A DNA stretch of 64,000 nt, from assembly GCF_902859745.1 (NCBI RefSeq), contig NZ_CADIJW010000006.1:62001-126000 (forward strand), read 5' to 3'. The position numbers and the translations under genes were made by a program. Of the stretch, positions 10,404-19,137 are shown piece by piece. Below the pieces are notes generated by a model that had not been told where the DNA came from, searched no databases, and saw only the letters and a list, made by a program, of their open reading frames with translations. Position 1 is the first letter of the stretch; the number at the start of each line of letters is the position of its first letter. This DNA is from Achromobacter dolens (lineage in GTDB: Bacteria > Pseudomonadota > Gammaproteobacteria > Burkholderiales > Burkholderiaceae_B).

Positions 10404-12179
10404 TTATTGCTTGGGCACGGTGTCGCGGGTGGCGCCGGCGCGCAGGAAGTCGAAGTCCACGCCCTGGTCGGCCTGCGTCACGGTCTGCAGGAACAGCTTG
10501 CGGTAGCCGCGCTCGGCCGCCGGACGCTCGACCGGGCCGGCCGCCATGCGGCGCGCCAGCTCGGCATCCTCGACCAGTAGGGCGATTTCGCGCCGCGCCA
10601 CCGACAGGCGGATCCGGTCGCCATTTTGCACGTAGGCGAGCGGTCCGCCAATCGCGGCCTCCGGGGTGACGTGCAGCACGATGGTGCCGGCCGCCGTGCC
10701 GCTCATGCGGCCGTCGGATATCCGCACCATGTCCTTGACGCCGGCGCGCGCCAGCTTCTTGGGGATCGGCATGTAGCCGGCCTCGGGCATGCCGGGCGCG
10801 CCGGTGGGGCCGATGCGCTTGAGCACCAGCACGTCGTCGGCGGTCACGTCGAGCGCCTCGTCGTCGATGCGGCGGGCCATGTCCTCGGCGTCCTCGAACA
10901 CCACGGCGCGGCCTTCGTGCTCCATCAGCTCGGGATTGGCGGCCGACTGCTTGATGATGGCGCCGCCGGGTGCCAGGTTGCCGCGCAGCACGGCCAGGCC
11001 ACCTACCGGATAGATCGGCGCGGCGACGCTGCGGATCACGTCCTGCTCGAACGGCGCGGGGGCGTCGCCCAGTTCCTCGCCCAGGGTGCGGCCCGACACC
11101 GTCAGCGCGTCCAGGTGCAGCAGCGGGCGCAGTTCGCGCAGCAGCGCCAGCATGCCGCCAGCGTGGTGGAAGTCTTCCATGTAGTGCTGGCCGGAGGGCT
11201 TGAGGTCCACCAGCACGGGCGTCTCGCGGCTCATGCGGTCGAGCCCGGCCAGGTCGATATTGATGCCCAGGCGGCCGGCGATGGCGGTCAGGTGCACGAT
11301 GCCGTTGGTCGAGCCGCCGATGGCCAGCAGCACGCGCAGCGCGTTCTCGATGGACTTGCCGGTGATGATGCGGTCGGGCGTCAGGCGCGCGGCCGCCATG
11401 GCGACGGCGGTGGCGCCGGTGCGCTCGGCCACGCGCACGCGGTCGGCGGTGACGGCCGGGGCGGACGCGCCGCCGGACACCATCATGCCCATCGCCTCGG
11501 TCAGGCAGGCCATGGTGCTGGCGGTGCCCATCACCGAACAGGTGCCGACGCTGGCCACCAACTGGTTGTTGACGTCGGCGATCTCGGGCGCGTCGATCTC
11601 CTCGGCGCGGTAGCGGCCCCAGTAGCGGCGGCAGTCGGTGCAGGCGCCGACCCGTTCGCCGCGGTGCGAGCCGGTCAGCATCGAGCCGGTCACCAACTGG
11701 ATCGCGGGCACGCCGGCGGACGAAGCGCCCATCAACTGCGCCGGCACGGTCTTGTCGCAACCGCCGATCAGCACCACCGCGTCCATCGGCTGGGCGCGGA
11801 TCATTTCCTCCGTGTCCATCGACATGAGGTTGCGCAGGTACATGCTGGTGGGCTGCGAGAAGCTCTCGTGCACCGAGATGGTGGGGAAGTCCATCGGCAG
11901 GCCGCCGGCCAGCATCACGCCGCGCTTGACCGCCTCGATCAGTTGCGGCGCGTTGCCGTGGCACGGGTTGTAGCTGCTGCCGGTGTTGACGATGCCGATG
12001 ATGGGACGCGCCAGCGCGTCGTCGGACAGGCCGGCGCCCTTGATGAAGGCCTTGCGCAGGAACAGCGAAAAGCCGGTGTCGCCGTAGTTGGTCAGCCCGC
12101 GCGCCACGCCGGTGCTGCGCGCGCCGTCGCTGTCGAAGGGGCCCTTGGCGGGCTTGCCGCCCTTGGTCTCGTCCGTCAT
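10404..12179 (-). CDS. IlvD/Edd-family dehydratase, pentonate (L-arabinonate)-type
   Basis: This is a 591-residue iron-sulfur dehydratase that removes water from a sugar acid to give a 2-keto-3-deoxy acid. Cysteines C73 ('NPCHG'), C141 ('GGCDKT') and C214 ('GTCSVMG') have the 68- and 73-residue spacing that I recall for the [2Fe-2S] L-arabinonate dehydratase of Rhizobium. 'DALTVSGRTLGEE', 'AVLRGNLAPGGA' and 'DMVRISDGRMSGTAAGTIVLH' are strong family segments. The start at 12179 has GGGAAG five bases upstream. Dihydroxy-acid dehydratase IlvD proper is less likely, given the company of a GntR regulator and a Bug binding protein. Substrate is unproven. Confidence 0.82.
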   Translation of the reverse strand: MTDETKGGKPAKGPFDSDGARSTGVARGLTNYGDTGFSLFLRKAFIKGAGLSDDALARPIIGIVNTGSSYNPCHGNAPQLIEAVKRGVMLAGGLPMDFPTISVHESFSQPTSMYLRNLMSMDTEEMIRAQPMDAVVLIGGCDKTVPAQLMGASSAGVPAIQLVTGSMLTGSHRGERVGACTDCRRYWGRYRAEEIDAPEIADVNNQLVASVGTCSVMGTASTMACLTEAMGMMVSGGASAPAVTADRVRVAERTGATAVAMAAARLTPDRIITGKSIENALRVLLAIGGSTNGIVHLTAIAGRLGINIDLAGLDRMSRETPVLVDLKPSGQHYMEDFHHAGGMLALLRELRPLLHLDALTVSGRTLGEELGDAPAPFEQDVIRSVAAPIYPVGGLAVLRGNLAPGGAIIKQSAANPELMEHEGRAVVFEDAEDMARRIDDEALDVTADDVLVLKRIGPTGAPGMPEAGYMPIPKKLARAGVKDMVRISDGRMSGTAAGTIVLHVTPEAAIGGPLAYVQNGDRIRLSVARREIALLVEDAELARRMAAGPVERPAAERGYRKLFLQTVTQADQGVDFDFLRAGATRDTVPKQ

Positions 12180-12304
12180 TTTTCTTCCCGATAATATTAT
12201 TGATAATCCAGGGCTGCGATCATATCCACCCTTGGAAATGCCAGGCAAGCGTTTTTCATCGGAATTTTTATTGATCTAATAAAAAGATCAGTCGATAGAA
12301 AAAT

Positions 12305-12321: not shown

Positions 12322-12399
12322 GATTGGCCTCCTACACTGGCGCCGTTGACGAGCCGGGCGTCCGTTCCATTCCTATACCCATCCCGGCAGGAGACCTAC

Positions 12400-13395
12400 A
12401 TGTCAGACCTGCGTCTGCGGCCCCGCCGCGCCTTGCTGCTTTCCCTGTTGGCCTTGTGTACCGGGGCCGCGGCGCCCGCCGTGGCCGCCGACGCCTATCC
12501 CGACAAGCCCATCCGCCTGATCGTGCCGTACCCGCCCGGGGGCGCCACCGACGTGATCGGCCGCGTGCTGGCGCAGGAACTGACCGGCGCGCTGGGCCAG
12601 TCGGTGATCGTCGAGAACCGCGCCGGCGCCGCCGGCAACATCGGCGCCGACCAGGTCGCCAAGGCCCAGCCCGACGGCTACACGCTGCTGATGGGCGCGC
12701 TCACCAGCCATTCGATCAACGCGGCGCTGTACCGCGGCCGCGTCACCTACGACGTGGAAAAGAGCTTCGCGCCGGTGTCCATCGTCGGCACCGTGCCGCT
12801 GGTGTTCGTGGTCAACCCGTCGGTGCAGGCCAATGACCTGAAGCAACTGATCGCGCTGGCCAAGGCGCGTCCGGGCTACGTCACCATGGCGTCGGCGGGC
12901 AACGGCTCGCCGCAGCACCTGGCCGGCGAAATGTTCAAGCGCACCGCCGGCGTGGATATCCTGCACGTGCCCTACAAGGGCAGCGGCCCGGCCATGACCG
13001 ATCTGATGGGCGGCCAGGTGCTCAGCATGATCGAGACCGTGCCGGCCTCGCAGGCCAGCATCAAGGCCGGCAAGCTGCGCGCGCTGGCGGTGACCTCGGC
13101 GCAACGCGTCGAGGCGCTGCCGGACGTGCCGACCGCGGCCGAGGCCGGCCTGCCGGGCTTCGAGGTCAGCTCCATGTTCGGCATCGTGGCGCCGGCCGGC
13201 ACGCCGGCGCCGGTGATCGACCGTCTGAACGGCGAGCTCAAGAAGATCCTGGCCAAGCCGACGGTCAAGGCGTCGCTGCTGAACCAGGGCGCCATCGCCG
13301 AGTGGACCACGCCCGCCGATGCCGGCGCCCGCGTGTCCGCCGAACTGGCGCGCTGGACCAAGGTCATCGACGAAGCCGGGGTCAAGCCGGAATAA
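12400..13395 (+). CDS. Bug-family (tripartite tricarboxylate) solute-binding protein
   Basis: This is a 331-residue periplasmic binding protein with a Sec signal peptide ('RALLLSLLALCTGAAAPAVAA', cut after about residue 30). The Bug signature follows: 'YPDKPIRLIVPYPPGGATDVIGR' near the mature N-terminus and 'GQSVIVENRAGAAGNIG'. Bug proteins bind small carboxylates or amides and normally hand them to TctA/TctB, neither of which is in this window. Start 12400 has CAGGAG 7 bases upstream. It diverges from the sugar-acid dehydratase gene, so its ligand may be that sugar acid. Confidence 0.88.
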   Translation: MSDLRLRPRRALLLSLLALCTGAAAPAVAADAYPDKPIRLIVPYPPGGATDVIGRVLAQELTGALGQSVIVENRAGAAGNIGADQVAKAQPDGYTLLMGALTSHSINAALYRGRVTYDVEKSFAPVSIVGTVPLVFVVNPSVQANDLKQLIALAKARPGYVTMASAGNGSPQHLAGEMFKRTAGVDILHVPYKGSGPAMTDLMGGQVLSMIETVPASQASIKAGKLRALAVTSAQRVEALPDVPTAAEAGLPGFEVSSMFGIVAPAGTPAPVIDRLNGELKKILAKPTVKASLLNQGAIAEWTTPADAGARVSAELARWTKVIDEAGVKPE

Positions 13396-13698: not shown

Positions 13699-15696
13699 AT
13701 GACTGAGACTCAGGACGAAAAATCGATCCTGTACCTGCATTTCGGTACGTCCAGCCCCTATTGGCGGTTGGCGGCCGACAGCAACGCGATCGAACTGGCC
13801 GCCGTCAAAGGCGCAACCAACATTGCATTGGCGCTGCAGCCCGAGCAGGCGCAGGCCATTCGCGCCCTGACCGGCATCACCGCCAGCCTGCGCATCGACA
13901 TCGTCCTGTACGGCGATCCCATCCAGTTGCGGCTGGTCGGCCGCAAGATCAATCCCACCGAATGGGCCGGCACGGCGTCGGCGCACACTGACACCGATTC
14001 GGTCGCGCGCGACCTGGTCGAAGGCCTGTCGTTCGCCGAGACCGTGGTGTCCGAGGCCAACTCGGTCATCGTCATCGTCGACCAGCACGGCCGCGTGCAA
14101 CGCTTCAACAAGGTCAGCGAGGAATACACCGGCAAACGCGAGCAGGACATCGTCGGGCGCAGCGTGTTCGAGATGTTCATGACGCGCGAAGAGGCCGCGG
14201 CCTCGCGCCGCAACATCGCCGAGTTCTACAAGCGCGGACAGTCGTACGAGGTCGAGCGCCTGATCAACACGGTCAAGGGCCCGCGGCTGTTCCTGTTCCG
14301 CAACAAGTTCGTCACCAGCGGCAGCGGCGAGAAGCGTGTCTACCTGATCTGCTCGGGCACCGACATCACCGAGGAACGCCAGGCGCAGGAACGCCTGCGG
14401 GTGCTGGCCAACACCGACGTGCTGACCAACCTGCCCAACCGCCACGCCATCACCACCCGCCTGAAAGCGGCGCTGGCCGAAGGCGAGGGCGCCAGCGGCG
14501 GCGTGCTGTTCCTGGACCTGGACAATTTCAAGCGCATCAACGACCACTACGGCCACGGCTTCGGCGACCGCCTGCTCAAGTCGGTGGCGGTGGCGATCTC
14601 CAGTTGCCTGTCGCCCGGCCAGACGCTGGCGCGGCTGGGCGGCGACGAATTCCTGGTGCTGCAGGAAGGCGCCGAGGCCTGGCACCTGGAGGCCACCGCC
14701 GCGCGCATCATCGAGCGCCTGCGCGAGCCATTCCGCCAGGAGCTGATCGAGGTCTACACAAGCTGCTCCATCGGCATCGCCATGTACCCCGAGCACGGCG
14801 ACGACCTCGACAGCGTGGTGCGCAGCGCCGACATCGCCATGTACGTGGCCAAGGAAGCCGGGCGCCATACCTACCGTGTGTTCCAGCCCGAGATGGACCG
14901 GCGCAACGCCGACTATGTTTGGCTCGACACCAACCTGCGCAAGGCGCTGGCCGAAGGCCACTTGATGCTGTACTACCAGCCCAAGCTCACCGGCCGCGGC
15001 GGCGAGATTGATGGCGTCGAGGCGCTGCTGCGCTGGCGCTCGCCCGAACGCGGGATGATCTGCCCCAGCGTTTTCATTCCTTATGCGGAGGAATCCGGTC
15101 TGATCTCGCAACTGGGCGTGTGGGTGATGCGCGAAGCGGCGCGCCAGGCCGCGGCCTGGAAGCGCGAGGGCCTGGACCTGCGGGTCGCCATCAACATGTC
15201 GGCGCGGCAACTGGACGACAAGGGCGTGGTCAGCGAATTCATGCGCGCGGTCAACGATGCCGGCCTCGATCCCTGCCTGCTCGACATTGAACTCACCGAA
15301 AGCTGCCTGATCGAGGACGAGGTCGCCGCGATCGAGCTGATGAAGCAGTTCCGCCAGTTGGGCGCGTGCGTGCACCTGGACGACTTCGGCACGGGCTATT
15401 CGTCACTGTCGCAACTGGCCCGCATTCCGCTGGACGCGATCAAGCTGGATGCCAGCTTCGTGCGCGGCGTCAACGAGAACCCGGTGTCGCAGGCGCTGGC
15501 GCGGGCCATCGTCGCGGTGGCCCGCACGCTCGAGCTGAAGGTGATCGCCGAGGGCGTCGAGACCCAGGAGGAAACCGCCTTCCTGGATACGCTGGGGGTG
15601 GACGCCAAGCAGGGCTACCTGTATGCCAAGCCCATGCCGGCTGCCGAGCTGACCACCTGGCTGGCGCAGCGGCGCCGGCTGCATCTGATTGCCTGA
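13699..15696 (+). CDS. rpfR: RpfR-type PAS-GGDEF-EAL receptor/phosphodiesterase (PdeR/Gmr family)
   Basis: This 665-residue cytoplasmic c-di-GMP enzyme is predicted to bind cis-2-unsaturated fatty-acid signals and then degrade c-di-GMP. Residues 1-95 match the N-terminal domain found in E. coli PdeR (YciR/Gmr) and Burkholderia RpfR that contacts RpfF ('YLHFGTSSPYWRLAADSNAI'). PAS is at about 112-225. GGDEF is at 314-318, intact and without an RxxD inhibitory site before it. The EAL domain has E441-A-L, DDFGTGYSSL at 561-570, KLD at 582-584 and AEGVE at 617-621, so phosphodiesterase activity looks intact. A DSF synthase gene (rpfF) lies tail to tail 21 bases away, as in Burkholderia and Cronobacter; this decides the name over plain pdeR. 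Confidence 0.9.
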   Translation: MTETQDEKSILYLHFGTSSPYWRLAADSNAIELAAVKGATNIALALQPEQAQAIRALTGITASLRIDIVLYGDPIQLRLVGRKINPTEWAGTASAHTDTDSVARDLVEGLSFAETVVSEANSVIVIVDQHGRVQRFNKVSEEYTGKREQDIVGRSVFEMFMTREEAAASRRNIAEFYKRGQSYEVERLINTVKGPRLFLFRNKFVTSGSGEKRVYLICSGTDITEERQAQERLRVLANTDVLTNLPNRHAITTRLKAALAEGEGASGGVLFLDLDNFKRINDHYGHGFGDRLLKSVAVAISSCLSPGQTLARLGGDEFLVLQEGAEAWHLEATAARIIERLREPFRQELIEVYTSCSIGIAMYPEHGDDLDSVVRSADIAMYVAKEAGRHTYRVFQPEMDRRNADYVWLDTNLRKALAEGHLMLYYQPKLTGRGGEIDGVEALLRWRSPERGMICPSVFIPYAEESGLISQLGVWVMREAARQAAAWKREGLDLRVAINMSARQLDDKGVVSEFMRAVNDAGLDPCLLDIELTESCLIEDEVAAIELMKQFRQLGACVHLDDFGTGYSSLSQLARIPLDAIKLDASFVRGVNENPVSQALARAIVAVARTLELKVIAEGVETQEETAFLDTLGVDAKQGYLYAKPMPAAELTTWLAQRRRLHLIA

Positions 15697-15717
15697 CGCG
15701 GCCGGCGCGCGCCGACC

Positions 15718-16602
15718 TCAATGCATGGTGGCGTCGATCAGGCCATCGGGGCCCGCGGGTGACCGACGGTTCTGCGCCATCACCAGCCGTTCCATGTAGG
15801 CGCGGTCCTTCGGATCGATCGAGAAGGCGGCGTCGACCCAGTCCTCGGTGATATCCATCAGTTCCGAGCGCGTCAGTTGCAGCACACGCTGGCGCGCCCG
15901 CAACATGGCGCGCATGCCGTTGAGCTTGGGCCGCATCACGTCGATGAAGGTGCGGGTGGCCTTGTAGGCGTCGCCCGGCTCGAACAGCACGTCCACCAGG
16001 CCGCGCGCCTGGAACCATTCGGCGGTGTGCGATTCGCCGCTGCCGATCAATTCCTCGGCCAGCTTCATGCCCGAGCGCCGCGCCACCAGCGAATAGCCGC
16101 CCATGCCCGGGAACAGGTTGAAGGCCATTTCGGGGAAGCCCATGCGGGCGTTGTTCTGCGCCAGCACGAAGTGGTGCGCCAGCGCCGCCTCGAAGCCGCC
16201 GCCCAGCGCGGTGCCCTCGATCATGGCCAGCGATACGGCGCCGGTGTCGAAGCCGCGGGTGGCGGCATGCACGCAATCGACGCAGGCGCGGGCGTAGGCG
16301 CGCAGCGCCTCGCGGCGGCCCGTGCGGATGGCCTCGGCGAAAAAGTTGAGGTCGCCGCCGACGTTGTAGATCTGCGGCACCAGCGAGCCCGTGACCCAGA
16401 AATCGATGGGCAGGCCGGAGTCCCTGGCGGCGCGCGCCAGGGTCATGATTTCGTCGATCAGTTCGTGATTGAAGCAGGGGCGCGGCTGGGCGCGCAGCAT
16501 CATCCACATGACACGTCGTCCTTCCTCATAGAACGCGGAGACTTGCTTCAAAGTGCCTGCGGCGGTAAAGGGATGGCAGTCCGGATGAATGAGTTGATTC
16601 AT
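15718..16602 (-). CDS. rpfF: RpfF, diffusible signal factor (DSF/BDSF) synthase
   Basis: This is a 294-residue crotonase-fold enzyme that dehydrates a 3-hydroxyacyl-ACP and releases a cis-2-unsaturated fatty acid as a cell-cell signal. Both catalytic glutamates are present: E138 in 'GGGFEAAL' and E158 in 'MGFPEMAF', equivalent to E141/E161 of Xanthomonas RpfF. Other family segments are 'YNVGGDLNFF', 'FNLFPGMGGYS' and the C-terminal 'ELMDITEDWVDAAF' and 'MERLVMAQNRRS'. Ordinary enoyl-CoA hydratases lack this C-terminal end. It converges on rpfR with a 21-base gap. Burkholderia-like gene order suggests the product is cis-2-dodecenoic acid (BDSF), but chain length is inference. No rpfC/rpfG genes are present here. 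Confidence 0.9.
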   Translation of the reverse strand: MNQLIHPDCHPFTAAGTLKQVSAFYEEGRRVMWMMLRAQPRPCFNHELIDEIMTLARAARDSGLPIDFWVTGSLVPQIYNVGGDLNFFAEAIRTGRREALRAYARACVDCVHAATRGFDTGAVSLAMIEGTALGGGFEAALAHHFVLAQNNARMGFPEMAFNLFPGMGGYSLVARRSGMKLAEELIGSGESHTAEWFQARGLVDVLFEPGDAYKATRTFIDVMRPKLNGMRAMLRARQRVLQLTRSELMDITEDWVDAAFSIDPKDRAYMERLVMAQNRRSPAGPDGLIDATMH

Positions 16603-16859: not shown

Positions 16860-16978
16860 TCATGCAAATGGCGGGGGCGACGGCGCGGGGGCGGGGCGCC
16901 GGCGGCCCGGCCGGGCCGGGTCGTTGTGACACAGCAACATCCGCCGCGGCTTTGCGGGCAATGAGAACAATCTCATAT

Positions 16979-16997
16979 ACAAATGAGATTCATTGTC
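16979..16997. promoter_or_regulatory. Fur box of the siderophore receptor gene
   Basis: ACAAATGAGATTCATTGTC agrees with the Fur consensus GATAATGATAATCATTATC at 13 of 19 positions by my count, with intact AATGA and TCATT halves. A second half-like element (AATGAGAACAATCTCAT) lies just upstream at 16960-16976. Start codon of the TonB receptor is 40 bases downstream, so iron repression is expected. Confidence 0.7.
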
Positions 16998-17037
16998 GAT
17001 ATGATCGCGGCTCGATAAAACTTACAGAAAGCTTGCG

Positions 17038-19137
17038 ATGCCTGTTTTTCCCGTCCCGCGCGCCCTGACCCTGGGGGCCGCGCTGGCCCTGATGGCCCCT
17101 GTCGTTCCCGCCCACGCCGACCCCATCCATCTCCCCGCCATCAGCGTCGAAGGCGCCAACGCCGACGATCCACGGGTGCCCGAAGTCACCACCGCCACCC
17201 GCACCCAGACCGCCGCGCGCTACGTGCCGCAGGCCATCGACACGGTCAAGGTCGAGAACCTGCAGAACTACGGCATCAGCACCCTCGGCGAGGCCCTGTC
17301 CGGCATCCCCAATGTCAGCAACGCCTCGGACACCCGCTTCGACTCGCTGCGCATCCGCGGCTTCGACGCCAGCAACGACTTCTACCTGGACGGCATCCGC
17401 GACGACAGCCAGTACGTGCGCGACCTGCACAACATCGAGCGCATCGACGTGCTCAAGGGCCCGGCCGCGGTGCTGTACGGCCGGGGCAGCCAGGGCGGGA
17501 TCGTCAACCGTATCAGCAAGGCGCCGCAGCCGGGCCGCGAGTCCACGCTCGAGGCCCAGGCCGGCAGTTGGGACCTGCGCAGCTTCTACGGCGACCTGAG
17601 CGCGGATCCCGGCGAGCACGTCAGCGTGCGCCTGAACATCGGCCAGGAGGACAGCAACAGCTTCCGCCACAAGATCGGCGGCACCCGCCAACTGGTGGCG
17701 CCGTCGCTGAACTGGCGCATCACGCCCGACCTGGACTGGCTGGTGCAATACGAATACAGCCGCTATGACCGTACTCCGGATCGCGGCATCCCCAGCGTCA
17801 ACGGCCGGCCCGCCGACGTCGGCCGATCGACCGTCTACGGCGATCCCGACCGCGACTACATCGACGATCGCGCGCAATCGTTCCGCTCGCGCCTGGCCTA
17901 CACGCTGGCGCCGGGCTGGCAGTTGCGCTACACGCTGGGCGTGTTCGCGCTCGACAGCAAGTTCGACAACACCTACCTGACCGGCTACAACGCCGCCACC
18001 GGCAAGGTCTCCCGCACCCGCTGGCAGCAGGACCTGACCACCCGCAGCATCAGCAACAACCTGGAAGCCGAGGGCCTGTTCCATACCGGCGCCATCGAGC
18101 ACCGGGTGCTGTTCGGCGTGGACGTGGGCAACCAGGCGCGCACGCCCGACCTCTACACCACGCTGGCGCGGGGCCCGGGCGCGCAGCCGGTGCCGACGCT
18201 GGACCTGTACGACCCGGACCTGTCCCAGCAGCACAACGGCGCCATGACGCTCAGCAGTTCGGCCCGTCACAAGACCCGCAGCCAGGGCTACTACGTGCAG
18301 GACCAGATCAAGCTGGACGACGCCTGGCAGGTGCTGCTGGGGCTGCGCATGGACCGCTTCAGCGTCGATTCCACCAACCGCATGCTGGACCTTTCGGCCC
18401 GCCGCGACAGCCGTGGCATGAGCCCGCGCGCCGGCGTGGTGTGGACGCCGGCGCGCGATCACTCGATCTACGCGTCGTACAGCAAGACCTTCTCGCCGGT
18501 CGGCGGCAGCCTCATCGGCATCACGCCGAACGCGCGCGGCAATACCAATGACGTGGATCCGGAGCAGACCCGCCAGTACGAAGTGGGCGTCAAGAGCGAC
18601 TGGCTGGACGGGAATCTGAGCACCACCCTGGCGCTGTACCAGCTCGAGCTCTACAACCGCCGCACCTCCGATCCGGTCGATCCGACCATCGTGCTGCTGA
18701 CCGGCAAGCAACGTTCGCGCGGCATCGAGCTGACCGCGGCAGGGCGCCTGACCGGCAACTGGTACCTGCGCGGCGGCATCGGCCTGCAGAACGCGTCCAT
18801 CGTCGAGGACAACAACGGCCTGGCCGGCAACCGCGTCAGCAACGTGGCGCGGCGCAACGGCAGCGTGTTCCTGACCTACAAGCCGGCCGAGGGCCTGTAT
18901 GGCGAGACCGGCCTGACCTTCGTCGGCCAGCGCTACGCCGACAACGCCAACACCGCGGTATTGCCCGGCTATGCCACCTGGGACGCGCTGGTCGGCTACC
19001 GCGCCGGCCAGTGGGACTGGCGCCTGGCGGTGCGCAACATCACCGACAAGACCTACTACGCCTCGGCCACCAGCGCCGGCCAGATCCGCGTGGGCGAGCC
19101 GCGCACGGTGGTGGCGACGGCGCAGTATCGGTTCTGA
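17038..19137 (+). CDS. TonB-dependent siderophore receptor
   Basis: This 699-residue outer-membrane receptor has a signal peptide ('ALTLGAALALMAPVVPAHA', cut near residue 26), a TonB-dependent plug at about 45-170 ('SGIPNVSNASDTRFDSLRIR', 'VLKGPAAVLYGRGSQGG') and a 22-strand barrel ending in the canonical 'VVATAQYRF' with terminal Phe. It is of the ferric-siderophore (Fiu/FhuE/BfrA-like) class. The plug's 'DSLRIRGFDASNDFYLDGIRD' segment resembles catecholate receptors, but the ligand cannot be fixed. A Fur box sits in the promoter and an intrinsic terminator follows, so it is a single-gene unit. Confidence 0.9.
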   Translation: MPVFPVPRALTLGAALALMAPVVPAHADPIHLPAISVEGANADDPRVPEVTTATRTQTAARYVPQAIDTVKVENLQNYGISTLGEALSGIPNVSNASDTRFDSLRIRGFDASNDFYLDGIRDDSQYVRDLHNIERIDVLKGPAAVLYGRGSQGGIVNRISKAPQPGRESTLEAQAGSWDLRSFYGDLSADPGEHVSVRLNIGQEDSNSFRHKIGGTRQLVAPSLNWRITPDLDWLVQYEYSRYDRTPDRGIPSVNGRPADVGRSTVYGDPDRDYIDDRAQSFRSRLAYTLAPGWQLRYTLGVFALDSKFDNTYLTGYNAATGKVSRTRWQQDLTTRSISNNLEAEGLFHTGAIEHRVLFGVDVGNQARTPDLYTTLARGPGAQPVPTLDLYDPDLSQQHNGAMTLSSSARHKTRSQGYYVQDQIKLDDAWQVLLGLRMDRFSVDSTNRMLDLSARRDSRGMSPRAGVVWTPARDHSIYASYSKTFSPVGGSLIGITPNARGNTNDVDPEQTRQYEVGVKSDWLDGNLSTTLALYQLELYNRRTSDPVDPTIVLLTGKQRSRGIELTAAGRLTGNWYLRGGIGLQNASIVEDNNGLAGNRVSNVARRNGSVFLTYKPAEGLYGETGLTFVGQRYADNANTAVLPGYATWDALVGYRAGQWDWRLAVRNITDKTYYASATSAGQIRVGEPRTVVATAQYRF

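Follow-up and report, generated by a model that had tools for sequence, protein, structure and literature searches.

A predicted BDSF-type RpfF/RpfR signalling pair of Achromobacter that groups with Enterobacterales pairs

Results

Organization of the rpfF/rpfR locus

The window analysed here is a stretch of 64,000 nucleotides (contig C6, positions 62001-126000) from a 6.29-Mb Achromobacter genome. It carries a complete rpfF/rpfR pair, composed of the gene for a putative diffusible signal factor (DSF) synthase, RpfF, and that for a putative receptor, RpfR, with RpfF-interaction (FI), PAS, GGDEF and EAL domains (Table 1). We consider it highly likely that the two proteins form a cell-density signalling pair of the Burkholderia DSF (BDSF) type in an Achromobacter whose nearest named relatives at the locus are A. 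insuavis and A. ruhlandii (RpfF identity 97% and 98%, respectively). The genes are convergent, with 21 bp separating their stop codons, and both frames lie at the positions, in the orientation and at the spacing that an original prediction made from the letters of the DNA had assigned to them. A scan of the gap for a terminator-like site found none there.

Table 1. Features of the rpfF/rpfR locus, in positions of the window
Feature	Position	Strand	Evidence
rpfR (pdeR/gmr-type), FI-PAS-GGDEF-EAL receptor, 665 aa	13699-15696	+	NF007474 cut-off passed; Pfam EAL, GGDEF, PAS; solved RpfR FI and PAS domains matched
FI (RpfF-interaction) domain, residues 1-95	13699-13983	+	6dga/6dgn, E 1.1e-21, 47% identity over 89 residues
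PAS domain, residues about 116-228, with BDSF-pocket residues S169, N172, Y183, R187, N202	14044-14382	+	6dgg, E 3.1e-46, 67% over 109 residues
GGDEF domain, residues 237-390, intact motif, without RxxD I-site	14407-14868	+	Pfam GGDEF 5.6e-46; alignment
EAL phosphodiesterase domain, residues 412-645, checked signature residues intact	14932-15633	+	Pfam EAL 3e-69; alignment
GC-rich intergenic gap, 21 bp	15697-15717	.	Sequence
rpfF, DSF synthase (bifunctional crotonase), 294 aa, E138 and E158	15718-16602	-	6dgn/5fus matches; NF006452 cut-off passed

Sequence features of RpfF

The best-scoring NCBIfam model for RpfF is NF006452, at 411 bits against a cut-off of 177; other proteins of the same genome reach 72 bits at most, and the cut-off is exceeded in none of 14 control genomes. 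E138 and E158, which we take, as did the original prediction, to be the catalytic glutamates, align gaplessly with 5fus and 6dgn and with the matching glutamates of RpfF from Xanthomonas campestris pv. campestris (Xcc; 3m6m), and both are conserved as glutamate in all 94 RpfF rows of the alignment. These rows comprise the window, 80 named loci and 13 loci of the family; the named loci are the 80 most similar to the window out of 310, which biases the trees to near relatives. The best solved relatives are 6dgn (E 3.6e-135), with 192 of 276 residues identical (70%), and 5fus (E 1.3e-134), the former being RpfF of Burkholderia cenocepacia (PMC6361424). F44 and F88 are likewise phenylalanine in all 94 rows; in the RpfF-FI complex they adopt a position that would clash with a bound fatty acid (PMC6361424).

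Pfam assigns RpfF to ECH_1/ECH_2, and the protein is among the 22 PF00378 matches of its genome. A tree of 33 rows separates, with a support of 100/100, 12 RpfR-type RpfF plus the RpfF segment of Xcc from 20 other crotonase segments of the window's own genome. Of the remaining two PF00378 matches, one is RpfF and the other lies at a contig end; several of the 20 segments form long branches. The original prediction had named beforehand the placement that would speak against it, i.e. the crotonase among ordinary enoyl-CoA hydratases, and this did not occur.

Sequence features of RpfR

RpfR scores 1066 bits with NF007474 (PRK10060; cut-off 782), which we take to be the PdeR/Gmr equivalog. Residues 7-95 align with the solved FI domain 6dga (42 of 89 identical), which bears out the proposal that the N-terminal 95 residues are the RpfF-contacting domain, and residues 116-224 match the solved PAS domain 6dgg (73 of 109 identical). 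All five residues that touch BDSF in the Cronobacter structure (S169, N172, Y183, R187 and N202; PMC6361424) are identical in RpfR. Across 92 RpfR rows, two loci (L033 and L107) being cut by contig ends, S169, N172, R187 and N202 are invariant, and Y183 is tyrosine in 89 and phenylalanine in three family relatives.

The GGDEF motif at 314-318 is intact, and the I-site position reads S305-P-G-Q308, so that RxxD is absent as had been predicted. The EAL signature, also foreseen to be intact, proves so at every position checked in the alignment, i.e. E441-A-L (441-443), N499, E531, DDFGTG (561-566), K582, E618 and Q638, to which we presumptively assign their usual catalytic roles. Family relatives differ from Achromobacter at the cyclase domain: the aspartate of GGDEF is replaced by alanine in 3 of 12, and at the I-site arginine occupies the first position in 8 of 12 and aspartate the last in 7 of 12.

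Occurrence and co-occurrence

All 43 genomes examined from the genus, that of the window included, contain RpfF. Across the family, RpfF is detected at E ≤ 1e-40 in 23 of 200 genomes (own included), and the FI-PAS half of RpfR at E ≤ 1e-45 in the same 23, of which 11 belong to the genus and 12 do not, spanning 9 of 43 genera. The two 200-genome samples were taken to be the same from the matching rows shown, with 157 matchless genomes unnamed in either listing. The co-occurrence of the synthase with an FI-PAS receptor is far beyond chance. Moreover, rpfF and rpfR are convergent in 92 of the 92 loci readable whole for both genes, with a gap of 0-248 bp in 91 of them and of 1642 bp in one (Paraburkholderia kururiensis, L059). 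One family genome (G016) holds two complete pairs, L105 and L108.

Lineage of the pair

In the RpfR tree and in a tree of the joined RpfF and RpfR proteins, Achromobacter and one family relative (G128) group with Enterobacterales, as opposed to Paraburkholderia and the remaining pairs of the family; this split has an SH-like approximate likelihood ratio test (SH-aLRT) support of 100 in the joined tree. The RpfF tree, which was bootstrapped, places Achromobacter and G128 inside the Enterobacterales. The RpfR tree and the joined tree come from quick searches and carry no bootstrap values, all trees are unrooted, and the lineage trees hold no B. cenocepacia or Cronobacter rows.

When the family of the window was forced into one clade, the approximately unbiased (AU) test rejected the constraint for RpfR (p = 0.0045) and for the joined proteins (p = 1.9e-5), and did not quite reject it for RpfF alone (p = 0.058). 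Forcing the Enterobacterales into one clade was not rejected for RpfF (p = 0.16). The taxon rows of these tests were picked by taxonomy, and the question was posed after viewing the trees. Because the Achromobacter pair groups with Enterobacterales and not with most of its own family, the trees suggest that synthase and receptor may have been transferred as one unit between an Achromobacter ancestor and an Enterobacterales lineage, in either direction. Ancient duplicates with differential loss could possibly yield the same tree pattern. Within a single genus (g28), the RpfF of G128 (L101) and of G109 (L104) are of different lineages, being 82% and 70% identical to that of the window.

Map position relative to the published echA

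A crotonase of Achromobacter has previously been linked to a DSF-like effect on biofilm. In A. xylosoxidans MN001, loss of echA (Axylo_0405), termed a DspI homolog, lowers biofilm, and cis-2-decenoic acid rescues it partly (PMC6684605). The reported insertions in echA lie at 458,026, 458,180 and 458,968, with bamD at 1,595,377 and flgB at 3,820,439 on the same map (PMC6684605). In three single-contig Achromobacter genomes bamD is 1.55-1.71 Mb from dnaA, which fits an MN001 numbering that starts at dnaA, as we assume. On that scale, all 11 single-contig Achromobacter genomes (sizes rounded; none known to be A. xylosoxidans) place rpfF 2.13-2.61 Mb from dnaA, measured in the shorter direction around the genome, and 10 of them place it 169-282 kb from flgB (the distance is 1.15 Mb in G217). 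The strongest PF00378 match lies 410-467 kb from dnaA in the three genomes checked, and a crotonase pair lies at 441-443 kb in one genome and at 498-502 kb in the other two.

Since echA is at 458 kb, it is very likely one of the ordinary crotonases of this map region and not rpfF, as judged by map position rather than by comparison with the MN001 sequence. The identity of echA with rpfF, which was considered as functional support for the pair, was accordingly discarded. The insertions in echA span 942 bp, which exceeds both rpfF (885 bp) and the nearby crotonase matches (about 0.7 kb), and therefore offers no choice between them.

Neighbouring genes

Several neighbouring frames were named by eye. 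A TonB-dependent-receptor-like frame (17038-19137, + strand) lies upstream of rpfF and divergent from it, with its start 435 bp from rpfF, and is preceded by an AT-rich inverted repeat (about 16960-17000); a Fur-box consensus, sought beside this gene, has zero matches across the window at up to 3 mismatches. Among 28 Achromobacter loci, this neighbour is full-length in 7, present as short matches only in 2, cut by a contig end in 1 and lacking at that place in 18. On the rpfR flank, 27 of the 28 loci have a tripartite-tricarboxylate receptor-like frame (12346-13395) and 26 have an IlvD-like dehydratase frame (10404-12248); the loci without them are cut contigs, and the rpfR flank is conserved.

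Discussion

The layout, the domains, the catalytic, ligand and tunnel residues, the co-occurrence and the phylogeny of the pair are established by the present analysis. Together with the NCBIfam equivalogs and the solved structures, they sustain the proposal that this is a pair of the Burkholderia/Cronobacter type. By analogy with the mechanism described for those systems (PMC6361424), RpfF would dehydrate a 3-hydroxyacyl-acyl carrier protein and cleave its thioester to release a BDSF-type cis-2-unsaturated fatty acid. The acid would be bound by the PAS domain of RpfR, which would raise the phosphodiesterase activity of the EAL domain and lower cyclic diguanylate (c-di-GMP), and the FI domain would bind RpfF near the entrance of the substrate tunnel, restraining signal synthesis. 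The activity of RpfF, the chain length of its product, the direction of the c-di-GMP change, the FI-RpfF contact and the phenotype are inferred from Burkholderia and Cronobacter.

The expected decrease of c-di-GMP upon signal binding follows from results in the homologs. In Cronobacter, c-di-GMP is elevated 3.9-fold in the rpfR mutant and 3.4-fold in the rpfF mutant (PMC4698668), and deletion of rpfR in B. cenocepacia raises c-di-GMP under biofilm conditions (PMC6361424). The original prediction had drawn the same direction from the absent RxxD and the intact EAL motifs; of these, RxxD bears on product inhibition of the cyclase and alone does not predict a signal-driven drop.

The closest described system is RpfF(Bc)/RpfR of B. 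cenocepacia (BCAM0581/BCAM0580), with which the Achromobacter pair shares the convergent arrangement, 70% identity of RpfF over 276 residues, the glutamate pair, F44/F88 and the receptor architecture. The two differ in that the Achromobacter pair is known from sequence alone, and it sits elsewhere than the Paraburkholderia pairs in trees that lack B. cenocepacia. The RpfF/RpfR of Cronobacter turicensis (FI 6dga; PAS 6dgg and 6dgj) has an FI domain 47% and a PAS domain 67% identical and shares the five ligand residues, although the organism belongs to another bacterial class. The RpfF of the Xanthomonas RpfF/RpfC/RpfG system is a distant homolog having both glutamates, whereas here the gene of a PAS-GGDEF-EAL receptor occupies the place of the two-component system. 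RpfF scores 186.9 bits with the Xanthomonas-type model NF053515 (cut-off 550), and this result and the adjoining receptor rule out a Xanthomonas-type RpfF. Visual inspection of the open reading frame list between 11000 and 19500 revealed no rpfC- or rpfG-like frame, and the genome was not searched for either. RpfR also resembles PdeR/Gmr of Escherichia coli through NF007474, a model whose identity we presume. E. coli differs in lacking a DSF synthase (PMC6361424). Finally, A. xylosoxidans echA shares the genus and is a crotonase with a DSF-like biofilm effect, and differs by its map position.

The presence of the pair in Achromobacter is not new. PMC4698668 and PMC4504480 have reported RpfF/RpfR homologs from the genus and PMC12838280 has reported RpfF homologs, so that this is an ordinary, catalogued system. 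A 2021 review states that quorum sensing of A. xylosoxidans had been undescribed before the echA study (PMC8142972), and passages from PMC4552427 and PMC9964602 name rpfF for Stenotrophomonas only. A literature search, judged mostly by titles and abstracts, yielded no paper in which rpfF or rpfR of Achromobacter was put to the test; for rpfR transfer, Bordetella DSF and RpfR cyclase activity, the listings alone gave nothing on point.

Several points weigh against reading the locus as a BDSF-type pair. The score of RpfF lies below the cut-off of NF053515, yet this is as expected for the RpfR-type subtype. Chemistry or mutant data for the Achromobacter pair were not found. Judging from its intact GGDEF motif, RpfR might also make c-di-GMP. 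Furthermore, effects on biofilm conflict between the model organisms: in Cronobacter the loss of either rpfF or rpfR increases pellicle formation (PMC4698668), whereas in B. cenocepacia biofilm is decreased in both mutants according to a review (PMC12838280), and point mutants of the PAS pocket gain fitness in biofilm (PMC6361424). Because of this conflict no phenotype can be predicted with confidence, and the biofilm effect proposed in the original prediction is not predictable here.

One alternative explanation is that RpfF is merely a common enoyl-CoA hydratase, serving fatty-acid or CoA metabolism and lying beside a GGDEF-EAL gene by chance. Although the ECH_1/ECH_2 label and the 22 PF00378 matches of the genome are compatible with it, we regard it as extremely unlikely, and in effect ruled out by the score gap for NF006452 and the grouping with Xcc RpfF, besides the FI-PAS receptor in all 23 family genomes. 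A second alternative is that the pair is functional and its signal is not BDSF, having another chain length (e.g. cis-2-decenoic acid or a mixture) to which RpfR is tuned. The motifs checked do not reveal chain length, and the response of the A. xylosoxidans echA mutant to added cis-2-decenoic acid agrees with such a signal; the polar PAS ligand residues and F44/F88 of RpfF, however, are identical to those of BDSF systems, a comparison that does not extend residue-wise to the hydrophobic acyl pocket. On balance we hold another signal to be unlikely. It is more doubtful still that RpfR acts on balance as a c-di-GMP synthase, or that it switches between making and hydrolysing c-di-GMP. The intact GGDEF motif and the absent product-inhibition site would permit it, but all 52 RpfR rows of Burkholderia/Paraburkholderia and Enterobacterales likewise have an intact GGDEF motif, and the mutants of Cronobacter and B. 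cenocepacia described above accumulate c-di-GMP. A BDSF-type pair that lowers c-di-GMP therefore remains our preferred interpretation.

What the analysis adds is that the published echA work probably concerns a different gene, together with the cross-class placement of the pair. The co-occurrence within the family and the shared cross-class placement support RpfF and RpfR evolving as one unit. Achromobacter is met in cystic-fibrosis lungs, which are also a home of BDSF-making Burkholderia. Readers of the field would seek the fatty-acid signal of Achromobacter at echA; rpfF/rpfR is the better candidate, because the synthase occurs in every genome of the genus surveyed and has its own receptor. 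We give about even chances to the wider proposal that rpfF/rpfR is a genus-wide, not yet studied BDSF-type system in Achromobacter, which has it in common with Enterobacterales by transfer as a unit, and that the echA of the literature is a different crotonase. If this is true, Achromobacter would have two routes to cis-2 fatty acids, or the rescue by cis-2-decenoic acid would proceed via RpfR without an echA-made signal.
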